Shown here one piece after another: positions 2,849 through 62,190 of a DNA stretch of 64,000 bases. The position numbers and the translations under genes were made by a program. The stretch's first letter is position 1. Every line of letters begins with the position of its first letter. The notes below the pieces were generated by a model that saw only the letters and a list, made by a program, of their open reading frames with translations, was not told the origin of the DNA and made no database searches. Source of the stretch: Nitrosophilus kaiyonis (GTDB lineage Bacteria; Campylobacterota; Campylobacteria; Campylobacterales; Nitratiruptoraceae); NCBI RefSeq assembly GCF_027943725.1, contig NZ_AP025696.1, positions 1,589,501 to 1,653,500 of the forward strand, given 5' to 3'.

Positions 2849-3064
2849 TTGGACATTGGACATTTGTAGTAATTAGTGTCATTAGTCATTAAGTTTCGAA
2901 TATTTAAAAGCCATTTAAAAATTTAACAATTTTTGATACATATTAAGAATATGGACATAATTTGTCATTAGTCATTAAATTTATTTCACTAATGACCAAT
3001 GACTTAATGACTTAATGACTATCTAACTTTCTAACTCTCTCACTTTCTAACTCATCTTACTCAT
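2849..3064. repeat. Intergenic heptad/octad tandem repeat with hairpin (locus A)
   Basis: The gap between cutA and argB is mostly degenerate short tandem units. It contains two TTGGACA heptads (2849-2862), two TAGTCAT-type heptads near 2964-2976, TTAATGAC units near 2991-3020, and from about 3021 octads of the CTTTCTAA type that run up to the argB stop codon. The words at 2964-2976 and 2991-3003 are inverted repeats with one mismatch and could form a hairpin. No gene was seen. The same word family recurs at nine further loci in the window. Confidence 0.75.
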
Positions 3065-3916
3065 CTACTTAACAATCTGCGTTCCAATTCCTGCACTTGT
3101 AAAAATTTCAAGCAAGATAGAGTGTTCTACCCTTCCATCAATTATATGAGCTTTTTCAACACCTCTCTCTATCGCTTCAATACAAGCATCAACTTTTGGA
3201 ATCATTCCACCACTTATTGTTTGGTCTTTTTTTAATTTTTCTATTTTTTCTTCATTCAAAGATGAGATAAGGTTTCCTTCCTTATCTAAAACACCTGGAG
3301 TATCTGTTAAAAATATAACCTTTTTGGCTTTTAGGGCTCCAGCAACCTTACTTGCACATAAATCAGCGTTTATGTTATATCCGGGATGACTTAACTCATC
3401 GCTTGCAGCAATTGGAGCAATTACTGGAACAAAATTTTCCTCTAATAGATTAAAAACAACTGATGGATCAATTTTTTCTATAACTCCGGTATATCCAAAC
3501 TTTTCAAAATCTTTTGGCTTAGCTGTTATAAAATGAGCATCCTTGCCACTTATTCCAATAGCTTTTGCACCATGATTATTTAATAAACTAACAATCTCTT
3601 TATTTATATCTCCACTTAAAACCATTTCTACTATTTCCATAACTTCTGGGGTTGTAACTCTTTGTCCATCAATAAACTTTGTTGGAATATTGAGTCTATC
3701 TAAAATAGAAGTTATTCTTTTGCCTCCACCATGTACTATTACAGGCTTTATTCCAACTAAATACATTAAAAGAATATCTTTAGCAAACTTCTCTTTTAAT
3801 TTAGTATCAATTTGTGCACTTCCTCCATATTTTATAACAAATATCTCATCTCTGAAATCTTTTATAAAAGGCAATGCATCAAGAAGCGTTTGAACTGTCT
3901 GTATTTTCTTTTGCAT
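3065..3916 (-). CDS. argB: Acetylglutamate kinase
   Basis: Phosphorylates N-acetylglutamate in the second step of arginine synthesis. The amino-acid kinase fold is clear: VIKYGGSA near residue 28 (phosphate-binding lysine), HGGGKRI near residue 63, and the nucleotide-binding LTDTPGVLD near residue 203; 283 aa is a normal length. The ATG follows an AAAGGAT site and overlaps the end of lpxK by 38 bp, so translation is probably coupled. argD, another arginine gene, lies elsewhere in the window (21605-22792). Confidence 0.96.
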   Translation of the reverse strand: MQKKIQTVQTLLDALPFIKDFRDEIFVIKYGGSAQIDTKLKEKFAKDILLMYLVGIKPVIVHGGGKRITSILDRLNIPTKFIDGQRVTTPEVMEIVEMVLSGDINKEIVSLLNNHGAKAIGISGKDAHFITAKPKDFEKFGYTGVIEKIDPSVVFNLLEENFVPVIAPIAASDELSHPGYNINADLCASKVAGALKAKKVIFLTDTPGVLDKEGNLISSLNEEKIEKLKKDQTISGGMIPKVDACIEAIERGVEKAHIIDGRVEHSILLEIFTSAGIGTQIVK

Positions 3917-9873: not shown

Positions 9874-9891
9874 AGGAATCCTTTTATGATT

Positions 9892-10084
9892 GGTAATTAG
9901 TATATTGGTATATTGGTTATTGGATTAAAGGAGAACGTTAAAGACTGAAGAAAAAGGGTTTAGTGATAGAAAAACTCAGCATTCAAATCTCACACTTATA
10001 TTTAACGCTAATATACTAATAACCAATACACCAATATACTACTTTCTCACTCACCTCACTCACCAATTACTAATGACTAATGAC
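9892..10084. repeat. Intergenic long hairpin built of short repeats (locus B)
   Basis: Arms at 9898-9923 and 10016-10041 are inverted repeats matching at 24 of 26 positions and consist of TATTGG/CCAATA-type words. The 92-nt interval contains a weaker nested inverted pair (CGTTAAA...TTTAACG). The right flank continues as CTCACTCAC units and then TAATGAC heptads up to 10084. No gene was seen in this gap between the divergent cmoB and phosphorylase genes, so their promoters must lie in or beside the element. Confidence 0.8.
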
Positions 10085-10144
10085 TTTTTTAACTGTTTGA
10101 CAAATTTTTTTGCTAAACTATTTATTAAAAACTTAAGGGAAAAA

Positions 10145-10724: not shown

Positions 10725-11606
10725 ATGACTCTTCAAAAAAGTGCTACAGTAGTTGCAAGTGCTGTTGCAACAATATTGGTAATTATTAAACTTGTTGTTG
10801 GAATTTTAAGTGGATCTGCTGCTGTTTTAGCAAGTGCAATAGATTCAATTCTTGACATTGCAGTTTCTATGTTTAACTATTTTGCACTCTCAAAAGCAGA
10901 AAAAGCACCAACTGAAAAATTTAACTATGGTCTTGGAAAGATAGAAGCTTTAGCAGCTGTCATTGAGGGAACAGTTATTACAATTTCTGGATTATTTATA
11001 TTTTACAAAGGCTTGATTAATATCATAGAGCACAAAAAGATAGAATATTTAGATAGCTCCATTTTAGTAATGATAATATCAATTATATTAACAGGTGGAC
11101 TTGTTATATTTTTAAACAGAGTTTATAAAAAAACTAAAAATATGGTAGTAAAATCTGATGCTTTGCATTATAAAACTGACCTTTTTTCAAATTCAGCGGT
11201 TTTAATTTCCTTAGCAATTATATATTTTACAAATTGGCATTTTATAGATGGAATTTTTGGTATGGCTATAGCACTTTATATTATAAAAGAGGCATATGAG
11301 CTTATAAAAGAGGGAACCTTAATGCTCCTTGATGTATCTTTAGAAGAAGAAATTGTTGAAAAAATAAAAGATGTTATAACAAATCAGCCAGAGGTCACAG
11401 GTTACCATTATTTAAAAACAAGAAAATCTGGAAGTGATAATTTTGTAGATGTTCATATTGTTTTTACTCCTGATATTTCTCTTTTAGCAGCACATCGTGT
11501 TTCTGATAGAATTGAAGAGGAGATAAAAAAGATTGATCCAAATGCAAGATGGCATTTTACAATACATTTAGATCCATATGATGATTTTGAGATGCATGAG
11601 CATTAG
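10725..11606 (+). CDS. Cation diffusion facilitator family transporter
   Basis: Inner-membrane proton/divalent-metal antiporter of the CDF family (FieF/CzcD-like), 293 aa with about six membrane segments. Metal-site motifs SAIDSILDIAV (TM2) and DALHYKTDLFSNSA (TM5) give the D-D and H-D quartet, and a C-terminal cytoplasmic domain of about 90 residues carries conserved histidines. The metal (Fe, Zn, Co or Mn) cannot be told. Start ATG follows GAAAGGATATA. Its TAG stop codon is also the first unit of a heptad repeat (locus C). Confidence 0.92.
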   Translation: MTLQKSATVVASAVATILVIIKLVVGILSGSAAVLASAIDSILDIAVSMFNYFALSKAEKAPTEKFNYGLGKIEALAAVIEGTVITISGLFIFYKGLINIIEHKKIEYLDSSILVMIISIILTGGLVIFLNRVYKKTKNMVVKSDALHYKTDLFSNSAVLISLAIIYFTNWHFIDGIFGMAIALYIIKEAYELIKEGTLMLLDVSLEEEIVEKIKDVITNQPEVTGYHYLKTRKSGSDNFVDVHIVFTPDISLLAAHRVSDRIEEEIKKIDPNARWHFTIHLDPYDDFEMHEH

Positions 11607-11624
11607 TCGATAGTCAATAGTCCA
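11604..11624. repeat. Three tandem TAGTCNA heptads (locus C)
   Basis: Three adjacent 7-bp units, TAGTCGA, TAGTCAA and TAGTCCA, begin exactly at the stop codon of the CDF transporter. The unit belongs to the same word family as the heptads at 2964, 33677 and 48482. It is the shortest member of the family in this window. Confidence 0.65.
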
Positions 11625-11639
11625 TAAAAAAGCTAAAAA

Positions 11640-11811
11640 ATAATTGTAAATTCGCTCGCTTTGCTTTCTTGATTTGCTTCAATGTAAACCAGCTGCTCGA
11701 TGTTCGCCACAAAATTCCTTGAATTTTGGACTCACATATACTCGCAGCTTTTCGCAAAGACACGGAGGATAAGCAGTTATCCTCCTAAAAGCCTTCGGCT
11801 TTTGTCTTTGC
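11640..11811. other. Structured intergenic region with nested hairpins; includes rny terminator
   Basis: Between the convergent CDF and rny genes lie several strong stem-loops. Bases 11754-11761 pair with 11804-11811 (8 bp) and enclose two hairpins: 11764-11772/11777-11785 (GGAGGATAA stem, GCAG loop) and 11787-11793/11797-11803 (AAAAGCC stem, TTC loop), giving a three-way junction. Further left, an AAAATTC stem with a 3-nt loop lies near 11711-11728 inside an outer AGCTGC/GCAGCT pair. The region is visibly more GC-rich than its surroundings. Part of it probably ends transcription of rny (the stem starts right after its stop codon); the rest is unexplained. Confidence 0.6.
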
Positions 11812-13380
11812 TCATCTTGCAAATTCTATAGCTCTATTTTCTCTAATAACATTTACTTTTATTTCACCAGGATATTGAACAGAATTTTCTATCTCTTTTG
11901 CTATCTCTTTAGAAAGTAAAACTGCTTCATCATCATTGATAAGTTCAGCATTAACTATAACTCTTACTTCTCTTCCTGCATTTATAGCATAAGCTTTTTT
12001 AACTCCTCTTTTGCTTAAAGCTATCTCTTCTATTGCTTGGACTCTTTTTAAGAAAGCTTCTAATACCTCTCTTCTAGCCCCAGGTCTTGCAGCACTTAGA
12101 GTATCAGCAGCACAAACTGCTGCAGCTTCTACAGTTTTTGGCTCTTCATGACCATGGTGTGCATATATCGCATTAATTACAACTTCATTCTCTTTATATC
12201 TTTTACAAATTTCTGCTCCCAAATCAACATGACTTCCTGCATACTCATGGGTTAAAGCTTTTCCTATATCATGTAAAAGTCCAGCCCTTTTTGCTAAAAC
12301 TTCATCACCACCCATTTCAGCAGCCATAATTCCAGCGAGATATGCAACTTCTAATGAATGTCCAAGTGCATTTTGTCCATAACTTGCTCTAAATTTCAAT
12401 CTTCCAATGAGTTTCAATATTTCTGGATGAACTTGTCCAATTCCAAGATCAATAACAATATTTTCACCCTCTTCTAATAGTTTTTGGTCAAACTCATTTT
12501 TAACTTTTTCATAAATCTCTTCTATGCGTGCTGGCTGAATTCTTCCATCCTCTACTAAAAGCTCTATAACTTTAGTAGCTATTGCTCTTCTATATAGATT
12601 AAATGAACTTAAAATTATTGCATTTGGGGTATCATCTATTATGATATCTACTCCTAAAAGCATCTCAAGAGTTTTAATATTTCTACCCTCTTTACCAATA
12701 ATTCTTCCTTTTAAATCATCACTTGGTAAATTTACAACATTTATAAGTCTTTCAGCCGCAAATTCTCCAGCATATCTTGTTGTTGCTTGAGCTAAAATAT
12801 AGTTTGCTTTTCTTTTTGCCTCTCTCTTTGCCTCTTCTTCATATTTTCTAACAATATGTGCAATATCCGCACGTGATTCCTCTTCAGCTTTTTTAAGAAT
12901 TAGCTCTTTTGCTTCTTCCAAAGTTAAACCTGCATGCTCTTCAAGGATTTTTATCGTTTCTGCTAATTTTTTCTTATATTCTTCTTCTAATCTTTTTGCC
13001 TCTTCTTTTAGATTTAAAGCCTCTTCTCTTTCAGCTTTAATCTCTTGTCTCTCTAAAGTAATATGCTTTAATTCATCCTTAAACATCTGTTTTAGAGCTT
13101 CTTCTTTCTCCATAAGCTCTTTAAAACGTTTATCATACTCATTTTGAAGTTTTTCAACTTTATCTTCATACTCTTTTTTTACTGCAAGTTCAGCCTCTTG
13201 AACTTTCATTTTTGCATTTTGTAATACAATCTCAGCCTCATGCTCTATAGCTTTAGCTTTTGCACGTGCTTGCTCTTCGTAAAGTTCAAATTTACTTTTT
13301 TCTACTTTTTTTGCTATTAAATATCCTGCAGCGCCACTTATTATAGCGGCAGAACTTCCTACCAATATCTCTACCCACAT
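11812..13380 (-). CDS. rny: Ribonuclease Y
   Basis: Membrane-anchored endoribonuclease that initiates mRNA decay. The 522-aa protein has an N-terminal membrane segment (residues 3-23), a long coiled coil (about 25-200), a KH domain with GRIIGKEGRNIKTLE near residue 228, and an HD domain with HSLEVAYLAG...AGLLHDIGKAL...HHGHEEP (about 340-420). The start overlaps the end of the 5-FCL gene by 89 bp in another frame; the GAGGGG site before the ATG supports it. The same gene pair overlap is known in Campylobacter. Confidence 0.95.
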   Translation of the reverse strand: MWVEILVGSSAAIISGAAGYLIAKKVEKSKFELYEEQARAKAKAIEHEAEIVLQNAKMKVQEAELAVKKEYEDKVEKLQNEYDKRFKELMEKEEALKQMFKDELKHITLERQEIKAEREEALNLKEEAKRLEEEYKKKLAETIKILEEHAGLTLEEAKELILKKAEEESRADIAHIVRKYEEEAKREAKRKANYILAQATTRYAGEFAAERLINVVNLPSDDLKGRIIGKEGRNIKTLEMLLGVDIIIDDTPNAIILSSFNLYRRAIATKVIELLVEDGRIQPARIEEIYEKVKNEFDQKLLEEGENIVIDLGIGQVHPEILKLIGRLKFRASYGQNALGHSLEVAYLAGIMAAEMGGDEVLAKRAGLLHDIGKALTHEYAGSHVDLGAEICKRYKENEVVINAIYAHHGHEEPKTVEAAAVCAADTLSAARPGARREVLEAFLKRVQAIEEIALSKRGVKKAYAINAGREVRVIVNAELINDDEAVLLSKEIAKEIENSVQYPGEIKVNVIRENRAIEFAR

Positions 13381-16793: not shown

Positions 16794-16900
16794 AATTTAG
16801 TTAAGACGGTTTAAAATGGTTAAGTGGTTAAGTAGTGAAGTAGTGAAGTTGTTTTTATTTCGCTACTACTCAACCATTTTGACCTTTTTAACCACTCAAC
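16794..16900. repeat. Intergenic octad repeat and hairpin element (locus D)
   Basis: Four perfect 8-bp steps lie at 16818-16849: two GGTTAAGT followed by two AGTGAAGT. The right half at 16868-16900 is a 33-bp motif (ACTCAACCATTTT... ending AACCACTCAAC) that also occurs at 17293-17325 and 18193-18225 with two or three differences. Left and right halves are partly complementary (AAAATGGTT against AACCATTTT), so the locus can fold back. Confidence 0.78.
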
Positions 16901-17227: not shown

Positions 17228-17338
17228 ATAGTTAGTTAAAATTGTTTAGTAGTTAAGTAGTAGAGTGGTCGAGTAGTTTTTATTTCATTATTACTCAACC
17301 TTTTTAACTTTTTTAACCACTCAACTTTTTTTTAACTA
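17228..17338. repeat. Intergenic octad repeat and hairpin element (locus E)
   Basis: Four degenerate 8-bp steps at 17245-17276 (TTTAGTAG, TTAAGTAG, then two variants) are followed at 17293-17325 by the shared 33-bp motif. The layout repeats that of locus D less than 400 bp away, with the 88-aa gene between them. Positioned between convergent genes, it may also act as a terminator. Confidence 0.78.
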
Positions 17339-18140: not shown

Positions 18141-18248
18141 TTTTAGGAATTAGGAATTGGGATTTTAGTTGAGTAGTTTTTATTAAATTACAACTCAACC
18201 ATTTTAACTTTTTTAACCACTCAACTAATTTAACTTATTTCTAATTCT
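18141..18248. repeat. Intergenic short-repeat element (locus F)
   Basis: Begins with GGAATTA/GGAATTG heptads (about 18146-18160), then a GTTGAGTAGTT word and, at 18193-18225, the third copy of the 33-bp motif of loci D and E. GTTGAGT at about 18168 can pair with ACTCAAC in the right half. It lies between the divergent MlaE-type permease and acpS genes, so it covers or borders both promoters. Confidence 0.75.
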
Positions 18249-32662: not shown

Positions 32663-33133
32663 ATGAATGTACTGCATCCCCCATTTGTACACTTTGTTAT
32701 TGCTCTTCCAGTTGCAGCTTTGTTTTCTCAATTAACTTATTTAGGTACAAAAGATCTTACCTATTCAAAAGCTTCAACAAGGATTCTGGCTCTTTCATTA
32801 TTAATCTCTTTTTTCGCAATATATGGGGGATTAAATGATGCAAATAATATTTTAAATAATAATCTTATTTTAGAAAATGGAAAATCTCTAATTTATAAAC
32901 ATAAATTATTTGGATTTATTACTGTAATAACTCTTTTTGTAACAACATTTTTAAAATGGTTTGCAATATTAAAAAAGTCATTTACTTTAGAAAAATTATC
33001 ACTTCTATTTATAATTTTTACTATTTTAGCTGTCTTATATGAAGGTAATATGGGCGGAAAAATAGTATATAAATATTCTGGAGGAATTGATAACAAAATA
33101 ATTAAAGAAAGATTTAATAACTTAAATAAATAA
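32663..33133 (+). CDS. DUF2231 family membrane protein
   Basis: A 156-aa protein with four membrane segments. The opening LHPPFVHFVIALPVA and the closing GNMGGKIVYKY are the DUF2231 signatures; the paired histidines in HPPFVHF have been suggested to bind metal or haem in this family, without proof. The stop codon lies 3 bp from the 3' end of the convergent RNase P RNA gene. An AAAGGATC site precedes the start. Confidence 0.8.
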   Translation: MNVLHPPFVHFVIALPVAALFSQLTYLGTKDLTYSKASTRILALSLLISFFAIYGGLNDANNILNNNLILENGKSLIYKHKLFGFITVITLFVTTFLKWFAILKKSFTLEKLSLLFIIFTILAVLYEGNMGGKIVYKYSGGIDNKIIKERFNNLNK

Positions 33134-33135
33134 TG

Positions 33136-33531
33136 TTGGCATAGCTGTAAGCCGAGTTCTGTATTTGAGGGCTATTTATCTATGGCTCTATATCACTATA
33201 GAGCTCTTGCGTTAGGCTCAATATCATGAGACTTTAACCAGGCCTAACTTGCTGCGGGTTGGGTTTACAATGCCTTCTGTATTGCTACAGAAGCGGTGAG
33301 CTCTTACCTCACCCTTTCACCCTTACCCCGCACCTACTTTTGGGCATATGTATTTATAAATTATATATTATCGATACAATATACAAAAGTAGGTGCGGGG
33401 CGGTTTACTTTCTGTTGCACTTTCCCTTGGCTTATCCTAGATAGGCTTCGCCAGCCACCAGTTAGGTGGAACCCTGTCTCATTGCAGCTCGGACTTTCCT
33501 CTGCATTAGCAGCAGCCCTCTGCTATGCCAA
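33136..33531 (-). ncRNA. rnpB: RNase P RNA (bacterial type A)
   Basis: On the minus strand the catalytic RNA of RNase P is recognisable throughout: P1 pairs TTGGCATAGC at the 5' end with GCTATGCCAA at the 3' end; GAGGAAAGTCCG (CR I) near 33500-33489; AGTGCAACAGAAAGTAAACCGCC near 33424-33402; GGGTAAGGGTGAAAGGGTG (CR III) near 33328-33310; and ACAGAACTCGGCTTA near the 3' end. The P12 helix is extended to a perfect 17-bp stem (33326-33342 with 33384-33400) capped by an AT-rich 41-nt loop. It matures the 5' ends of tRNAs, including the two in this window. Confidence 0.96.
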
Positions 33532-33564: not shown

Positions 33565-33594
33565 GAGTTTTGAGCATCAAGCATTAGATATTGA

Positions 33595-33708
33595 AGATTA
33601 AGTCATTTAGTTATTCAAACAAGTAATTAGGAGTTATTTTTTATATTATTCATCATTTAGCCATTGGATTAGTCTTAATGACTAATTACCAATGACTAAT
33701 GACTATTT
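33595..33708. repeat. Intergenic heptad repeat (locus G)
   Basis: Four consecutive 7-bp units at 33677-33704 (AATGACT three times, AATTACC once) end just before the oorC stop codon. The left part (33595-33660) is looser, with AGTCATTTAG and CATTTAG words that can pair with the heptads. No gene was seen between oorC and the rnpB promoter. Confidence 0.72.
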
Positions 33709-48465: not shown

Positions 48466-48481
48466 TTATTACCTTGAGATT

Positions 48482-48638
48482 TTAGACATTAGACATTAGT
48501 CATTAGAAATTGGAAATTAGGAATTGGTGTTAAGAGTTAAATATTAAATGTTTAAATTAACACTAAATTCTACACACTTAATTCTTAACTCTAACTCAAC
48601 ATACTCGACTATTCCACTATGCCCCTATTCCACTATCC
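48482..48638. repeat. Longest intergenic heptad tract (locus H)
   Basis: Starting at 48482, seven-base steps can be followed for over 100 bp: TTAGACA twice, then TTAGTCA, TTAGAAA, TTGGAAA, TTAGGAA and TTGGTGT, drifting into TAAATNT units and, on the other side, the complementary words AATTCTT, AACTCTA and ACTCAAC. It ends with a roughly 15-bp imperfect direct repeat (CTATTCCACTATGCC). The tract separates the Lol permease from secA. No gene was seen in it. Confidence 0.8.
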
Positions 48639-48680
48639 TGCTTCGCAGCTTCACTGCTTCGCTTCTTCTCCGCTTCTCAC

Positions 48681-51284: not shown

Positions 51285-51316
51285 TTTTTTCCTTTGTTCT
51301 TATAAAAATGCTAAAA

Positions 51317-51421
51317 TAGTCAAGTGGTTTTAATTTTTATTGTTAAGTAGTTAAAATGGTTTTATAACACCACTTAACTATTAATTATCCATTTTAAAAT
51401 AAACCATTTTAACTACTCAAC
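51317..51421. repeat. Intergenic inverted repeat element (locus I)
   Basis: Arms 51342-51362 and 51401-51421 pair at 20 of 21 positions (GTTAAGTAGTTAAAATGGTTT against its complement) with a 38-nt interval. The words match those of loci D, E and F. It occupies the gap between the divergent secA and lolA, so promoters must lie close by or within it. Confidence 0.82.
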
Positions 51422-51486
51422 AGTAGCTTTTAGTATGAAATTTTATCATAATTTTAAATTTTTTTTATATTAAGGAGAAAAAAATA

Positions 51487-61655: not shown

Positions 61656-62121
61656 AGTTATCTATCCTGGAACTTTTGATCCTATAACTAATGGGCACGT
61701 TGATATAATAAAAAGAGCATCAAAACTTTTTGATGAAGTTATTGTAGCTATTGCTTTATCCAAAGAGAAAAAGCCGATGTTTGATATTGAAAAAAGAGTT
61801 TATATGGCAAAAAAAGCTACAAAAAAATATGAAAATGTAAAAGTTTTAACTTTTGATTCATTATTAGTTGATTTTTGTAATGAACAAAATGCAAATGTAG
61901 TTATAAGAGGATTAAGGGCAGTTAGCGATTTTGAATATGAACTTCAAATGGGATATGCTAATCAGTCATTAAAAACTGATTTGGAAACAATATATCTTAT
62001 GCCAAATTTAAAAAATGCCTTTATTAGTTCATCTGTAGTTAGAACTATACTTAAATTTAATGGTGATGTTAGTCATTTGGTACCTGAAGAGATTGTTGAG
62101 GATTTAAAAATTAGTAAATAG
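61648..62121 (+). CDS. coaD: Phosphopantetheine adenylyltransferase
   Basis: Penultimate step of coenzyme A synthesis, 157 aa. The nucleotidyltransferase TxxH-type motif sits in YPGTFDPITNGHVDIIKRA (residues 6-24), and VIRGLRAVSDFEYELQM (about 88-104) and the C-terminal ISSSVVRTI are conserved. Start codon overlaps ubiX; the 69-bp gap to tmk contains repeat locus J. Confidence 0.96.
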   Translation: MNKVIYPGTFDPITNGHVDIIKRASKLFDEVIVAIALSKEKKPMFDIEKRVYMAKKATKKYENVKVLTFDSLLVDFCNEQNANVVIRGLRAVSDFEYELQMGYANQSLKTDLETIYLMPNLKNAFISSSVVRTILKFNGDVSHLVPEEIVEDLKISK

Positions 62122-62126
62122 TAAGA

Positions 62127-62178
62127 AGTGATCAGTAATCAGATAAAATTAATTACATACTGATCACTCATTACTAAT
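62127..62178. repeat. Short inverted repeat element (locus J)
   Basis: GTGATCAGTA at 62128-62137 and its exact complement at 62158-62167 flank 20 nt; the left side steps as AGTGATC, AGTAATC heptads and the right side as CTGATCA, CTCATTA units. It belongs to the same heptad-hairpin family and lies in the coaD-tmk gap. Confidence 0.7.
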
Positions 62179-62190
62179 ATCGGAGCAAAT

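Follow-up and report, generated by a model that had tools for sequence, protein, structure and literature searches.

How does a bacterial chromosome come to carry, between its genes, tandem arrays of degenerate 7- and 8-bp units? The question is raised by the secA-side gap at position 48482 of the window, the 64,000-nucleotide stretch of Nitrosophilus kaiyonis DNA analysed here. The source genome (G000) is closed, 1.77 Mb in length and 28.9% G+C; it was assembled from 20-kb stretches, and its genes were called by open reading frame only, so that gene starts are approximate. The named sequence closest to its SecA is that of the MAG Nitratiruptor sp. S143_89 (83% identity), which probably places the organism in the Campylobacterota. 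Tracts are classed as G-type or C-type by G over C on the plus strand, and the gap comprises the following parts:

48474-48541, plus strand: G-type heptads TTAGACA-TTAGTCA-TTGGAAA-TTAGGAA, drifting to TTAAGAG, C-poor, running inward from the left edge (lag-7 identity 0.86 to 0.57-0.64; tract score 22.5)
48542-48570, minus (sense) strand: centre, AGAATTTAGTGTTAATTT, a variant of the recurrent ATTTAGTGATA motif (from sequence)
48571-48600: C-type partner CACTTAATTCTTAACTCTAACTC, pairing with the TTAAGAG part (RNA fold z -2.95)
48602-48678: C-type 8-bp units CTATTCCA/CTATGCCC and GCTTCACT/GCTTCGCT, ending 2 nt from the secA stop codon (lag-8 identity 0.56-0.74; ortholog gaps)

On the plus strand from 48474, the left arm reads TTAGACA, TTAGACA, TTAGTCA, TTAGAAA, TTGGAAA and TTAGGAA before passing into TTAAGAG-type units; the centre is followed by CTTAATT/CTTAACTC units and then by 8-bp units. 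A sequence-only reading of this DNA had the drift from TTAGACA to TTAGGAA right but overstated the 7-bp phase at more than 100 bp. The phase is kept for about 70-85 bp, with lag-7 identity falling from 0.86 to about 0.5, and beyond about 48594 a period of 8 takes over from 7.

The 7/8-bp intergenic repeats are real and genome-wide. Across 611 gaps (123.5 kb), intergenic autocorrelation exceeds dinucleotide shuffles at lags 7 (z=31), 8 (z=21), 14 (z=22) and 21 (z=25), whereas coding DNA shows no 7/8 peak and only the codon period. Tracts above threshold number 127 at period 7, 49 at period 8 and 12 at period 9, against 0 expected from shuffles; at the remaining periods, whole-genome counts are near 0 and none is conspicuous. 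The 7/8-bp step claimed from sequence alone is thereby borne out, with 181 of 737 gaps holding an array tract. The accompanying claim that arrays occupy promoters and termination regions is not, in the main, supported, as 145 of the 181 array gaps separate co-directional genes. The arrays sit between the stop codon and the ribosome-binding site, and the C-type side, judged by eye, runs toward the latter. An independent set of 80 SecA loci, taken from many groups of bacteria, holds in its non-coding DNA 10 period-7 tracts against 0.0 expected, with almost nothing at other periods.

The most surprising feature of the arrays, absent from the sequence-only reading, is their polarity: whichever edge of the gap one starts from, the strand that runs inward is the C-poor one (TTAG.., TTAAG.., GTGAAG..). 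Among all within-gap pairs in two-sided gaps, G-type lies left of C-type in 119:2, counts that are not independent within a genome because blocks are copied between loci. Adjacent tracts are ordered GC:CG in 72:0 cases in the source genome, and in 6:0 in its congener G003, 6:0 in G043 (a Campylobacteraceae MAG) and 4:0 in G063 (a Selenomonadaceae MAG), the last three counts being small and the G043 and G063 stretches having been picked for holding heptads. One-sided gaps read inward:outward 87:14 in the source genome and 6:2, 8:1 and 10:2 in G003, G043 and G063; about 15% of single tracts face outward. The rule is common to the source, its congener, another Campylobacterota genome and a Negativicutes (Bacillota) genome, and the C content of the G-strand is 1-7% across all four. 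It appears at gene 3' ends (106:11) and 5' ends (109:36), and in convergent and divergent gaps as well.

Polarity does not reflect the general base composition of gaps, because array-free gaps are unskewed (0.02-0.03 vs 0.55/0.31) and polarity persists in units whose G and C contents are equal (TTAGTCATTAG 56:13, TTCGTAATTCG 14:0); simple selection on composition was rejected on the same two grounds. In gene terms, "inward from the gap edge" is the same as "G-type after stops, C-type before starts": G-type tracts begin a median 25 nt after stop codons, and C-type tracts end a median 21 nt before start codons. Because the two wordings are equivalent, polarity alone cannot separate a generating process from selection relative to genes.

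Hairpins, which the sequence-only reading placed at most loci, are a secondary feature. The other window loci are as follows:

2848-2864: G-type ATTGGAC heptads, left side (TRF)
2998-3066: C-type 8-bp units AATGACTT, CTAACTTT and CTCTCTCA (tract score 24.5)
9889-9923: G-type ATTGGTAT units, left arm (fold z -3.1)
10008-10085: C-type CTAATATA, CTCACTCAC and AATGACT units, right arm
11604-11626: TAGTCGA/TAGTCAA heptads, the first TAG being the stop codon of the upstream gene
16814-16852: G-type 8-bp units GTTAAGTG/GTGAAGTA, with a C-type arm onward to about 16920 (tract score 21; fold z -4.4)
17244-17338: 8-bp units GTTAAGTA/GTCGAGTA plus a complementary ACTCAACC side (fold z -5.9)
18143-18235: TTAGGAA heptads, then ACTCAACC-type octads (tract score 11; fold not significant, z -0.98)
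33580-33705: TTAGATA/TTAGTCA words on the left and TAATGAC heptads on the right, adjoining the RNase P RNA gene (fold z -3.5)
51312-51425: left arm GTTAAGTAGTTAAAATGG, right arm CCATTTTAACTACTCAAC, upstream of secA (fold z -4.6)
62115-62181: left arm GTGATCAGTAATCAG, right arm CTGATCACTCATTAC (fold z -6.45)

Seven of the nine window loci folded (11604 was left out) do so better than chance (z <= -2.9), and for these the hairpin claim stands. It fails at 2848 (z +1.0) and 18141 (z -1.0), where no significant fold was found, and for the TTAGACA arm at 48482, which stays unpaired while the TTAAGAG/CTCTTAA part of that gap pairs (z -2.95). The hairpin was rejected as the organising principle because polarity holds where the arms, often non-complementary, cannot pair: in 40 gaps, complementarity between the arms does not exceed that of arms taken from separate loci, and the G-left/C-right order is still 39:1. 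Polarity is the stronger rule. Among Rfam covariance models, none matches the arrays of the window; the hits there are limited to RNase P and two tRNAs. The class A RNase P RNA gene lies at 33132-33531 on the minus strand, with an array adjoining.

The units were earlier taken to be locus-specific, which the genome contradicts: allowing up to 2 mismatches, the TTAGACATTAGNCATTAG word has 229 occurrences and its reversed control 0, and composite blocks reappear in the same order at different loci. Start-codon-edge units differ from stop-codon-edge units. In co-directional gaps, A units (TTRGNNA) stand at both ends in inverted orientation; TTCGTRA units are C-type in sense only (30:0), about 27 nt before the start codon; and octads and TAGTGATAG-type units are G-type in sense in the upstream half, at about 195:29, counts that overlap within arrays. 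As judged by eye, many gaps share a motif near ATTTAGTGATA(G/A)T...TAAAAACT at their centre, flanked by the G-type and C-type arms; it could be a promoter -10 region, and in the window it is also seen at about 9955-9975 and at 48542-48570 (minus strand). A core of about 185 bp has 33 genome matches, 25 of them at least 150 bp long, 73-94% identical to one copy. This structured-looking repeat, GTGAGCGAGGGCAAAGCGAAGC...GGTTTACCTTGAAG...GATTTTCGGTTAG, is rich in GCGAAGC/GCGAAAGC words and often lies inside arrays; copies stand at window 11640-11812, for which Rfam gave no match, and, for example, at G000:C1:1184337-1184546. Since blocks, central motif and core are shared by many loci, copying between loci must accompany local diversification. 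The idea that heptads are diversified in place therefore keeps its drifting units, but a purely local origin is doubtful. Three identical long stretches without long open reading frames, probably rRNA operons (G000:C1 222901-224674, 593424-594994 and 1752068-1753841), each carry the same TTAGTCA array, the three copies being kept identical.

The arrays are derived insertions that turn over between species. In 16 of 19 relatives no DNA separates secA from the next gene, the two touching or overlapping; the source genome has 215 bp between them, all of it array, and the remaining gaps measure about 50 bp in one relative and about 130 bp, without heptads, in two. Comparison with the sister genome G003 (79% protein identity) gives a median of 179.5 bp here against 95 bp there for 34 array gaps with a syntenic counterpart. 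Array gaps of 94-405 bp match gaps of at most 27 bp or overlapping genes in the congener (source vs G003, in bp: 155 vs -21, 249 vs 16, 94 vs 3, 186 vs -18, 96 vs -9 and 405 vs 18), which carries arrays of its own dialect at other places. Arrays also extend into the last codons of genes, so that the proteins acquire a short C-terminal addition encoded by the array and a stop codon that is likewise part of it, such as ...H* from CAT TAG. Occupancy differs between species within one genus: among 249 Campylobacterota genomes only seven have at least 10 matches to a 25-nt heptad pattern, and G024 has 135 where its three congeners have 0. Array gaps are thus much longer here, at sites whose occupancy differs, and many of the counterpart gaps are tiny or overlapping. 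This supports the earlier view: the arrays are gained DNA, their units drift, and they look as if some process had made them, not as if one transposon had been copied cleanly.

Contrary to the statement that no named family fits, heptamers of the same layout are published for Calothrix (STRR), Xanthomonas and Nostoc (GGGAATC), and Beggiatoaceae, Bacteroidetes and Cyanobacteria (TAACTGA), as are paired octamers in Geobacter. The Calothrix STRR are reportedly short tandem heptamers in gaps, with several unit families, and would resemble the present arrays in both respects. With the class of bacterial heptameric intergenic repeats, the arrays share 7-bp intergenic tandem structure, inward pairs near gene ends and occupancy that differs between relatives. 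The degenerate 7-bp units of Xanthomonas and Nostoc, GGGAATC and GGGGA(C/T)T, are intergenic, lie about 28 nt from the nearest gene, form 70 and 75 pairs, always convergent and on opposite strands, and vary in length between related species (Rehm 2015, PMC4692102, also the source for Xanthomonadaceae polarity). They are likewise degenerate, intergenic and paired inward, but comprise one G-quadruplex unit type per genome; here there are many dialects, 7- and 8-bp periods and long mosaics, and the dominant units mostly lack G-tracts of the G3 kind. The TAACTGA heptamers are patchy, with some relatives lacking them, and show 7-nt indels between strains; 147 of 170 face a start codon in Beggiatoa, and a Microcystis sample shows mixed orientation (MacGregor 2015, PMC4679880). 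Facing a start codon is the same as the C-type-before-start rule, but TAACTGA is one unit, generally without an inverted partner, and is not the dominant unit here. In Geobacter metallireducens, tandem octamers or heptamers are paired and proposed as IHF/HU sites (PMC2700814); these, too, are multicopy tandem 7-8-bp units on opposite strands at variable distance, but their copy number is fixed at 3-5. Published Xanthomonas data and most published Beggiatoa data agree with the polarity, whereas Microcystis does not. The array kind is known in pieces; in the literature searched, neither the multi-dialect mosaic nor pairing-independent polarity was found described.

In head-to-head telomere fusions and interstitial telomere repeats, (TTAGRN)n faces (NYCTAA)m and the C-poor strand runs toward the junction. 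The arrays share this geometry only, on a circular bacterial chromosome in which no reverse transcriptase was found. The explanation ranked first, at a probability of roughly one in three, is extension of DNA 3' ends followed by rejoining, with ectopic copying second. The array strand, G/A/T-rich and C-poor, would grow 5'->3' away from the gene edge, much as if a slipping polymerase, or an activity like it, were lengthening a DNA 3' end; where both ends were extended and rejoined, a G-array would face a C-array. Slippage may later lengthen the arrays in 7/8-bp steps and let them drift, and recombination may copy pieces between loci, spreading dialects, central motif and 185-bp core. Hairpins, stop codons and spacing effects would be by-products, tolerated by selection between the stop codon and the next ribosome-binding site. 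Such a process accounts for one-sided arrays, for the invasion of gene ends and for a polarity that does not depend on pairing; along an array, the units do change step by step. Polymerases are known to synthesise repetitive DNA without a template in vitro (PMC13061963), so the chemistry is not far-fetched, though none of the repeats noted there is a heptad of the present kind. The source genome has no match to the reverse transcriptase family PF00078, the mark of telomerase-type end repair, and no Ku. PolX and Y-family polymerases were rejected as candidates, being missing from some array-rich genomes and present in array-poor ones, and neither an end-extension event nor, among these four, an enzyme for it was seen. 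Loss of MutS as a cause was rejected, since a MutS_I domain is present. Other observations also count against end extension. Simple end healing does not predict that start-edge and stop-edge units differ (30:0; about 195:29); conserved block order with a recurrent core and centre suggests dispersal of composites; and outward single tracts (~15%) and the mixed Microcystis TAACTGA sets run against the rule.

That dispersal is what a MITE-like or REPIN-like family would provide, a possible alternative in which heptad arrays are terminal inverted repeats mobilised by a transposase in trans and turned into mosaics by decay and nesting. Terminal repeats would naturally give fixed inward polarity, and the 33 matches to the 185-bp core within many arrays, the conserved block order and the patchy occurrence all suit such a family. 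It is harder to reconcile with arms that are often of different dialect or missing on one side, with the lack of conserved ends and of a single unit, with similar units in another phylum, and with a source genome that has no Y1 (Y1/RAYT) transposase. A selected RNA or translation signal, in which arrays after stop and before start codons act by protein binding or by controlling coupling, Rho or ribosomes, is more doubtful. MacGregor proposed a translational signal for TAACTGA (PMC4679880), and the strong gene-relative orientation, the median distances of 21 nt before starts and 25 nt after stops, and the slight excess of G-U type over A-C type mismatches in arms (258 vs 208) are as such a signal would have them. 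The units, however, are too diverse for one binding protein, sister species with the same genes lack whole arrays, and composition-balanced units are polar as well. All-frame stop codons were rejected as not specific, their enrichment being mild and present on either strand (per 100 nt, observed vs shuffled: G strand 11.9 vs 9.1, opposite strand 7.7 vs 5.7); RNA-level selection through G-U pairs was rejected because its excess is so small.

Ordinary short-tandem-repeat slippage, with 7 bp favoured by the DNA polymerase footprint (an idea from earlier work as cited by PMC4692102), is quite unlikely to suffice. It accounts for drift and unit steps, and both the 7-bp excess in the 80 bacterial loci and the 7-nt indels between Cyanothece strains (PMC4679880) favour it, but it predicts neither polarity, gene-edge placement, shared dialects nor species-level bursts, and alone it falls short of a 119:2 polarity. 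G-quadruplex elements, as proposed for GGGAATC, share layout and polarity with the arrays (PMC4692102); that they explain the present ones is very improbable, for TTAGACA, TTAGTCA, TTAAGAG and TTCGTAA have no G-tracts and an identical layout, which already makes quadruplexes unlikely in the source genome. End extension with rejoining, proposed here as a mechanism, appears to fit polarity best.

Heptamers have so far been reported per unit and organism, each separately explained by a quadruplex, a regulator site or slippage. The present arrays belong with these scattered reports (STRR, GGGAATC, TAACTGA), as a multi-unit form mostly without G-quadruplex tracts. Units free of G-tracts obey inward polarity and gene-edge placement in the two phyla tested directly; the same layout without G-tracts removes the quadruplex explanation in this genome and leaves plain slippage insufficient. 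The arrays point to something shared, either a generating process or a constraint, and their common layout in scattered, unrelated bacteria hints at a common DNA-adding process. It is unlikely, if conceivable, that sporadic bacteria carry a telomere-like end-extension and rejoining activity that writes C-poor 7/8-bp arrays at broken ends, so that inward arrays would be scars and the heptamers of Xanthomonas, cyanobacteria, Beggiatoa, Campylobacterota and Bacillota one phenomenon. The polarity rule is simple, can be tested on any genome and offers a handle on the origin of non-coding DNA between bacterial genes.

Heptamer arrays were also seen elsewhere. Near-perfect long ones occur in unrelated bacteria, namely GGCTTAC x10 in Halomonas (L156:4946-5019) and GGCTAAC x8 in an Anaerosolibacter MAG (L158:4941-4996). 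More than five matches to the heptad pattern occur in only three (180, 36 and 6) of 151 genomes from the class to which G063 belongs. In G215, one of the three, CCCTAA-like units are faced by arrays close to TTTAGGG/TTAGGGG, and at its loci L258 and L272 the intergenic arrays are nearly identical to telomere repeats, with ATTAGGGTTTAGGGGTTAGGGG facing CCCTATATCCTATTTCCTAAATCC.
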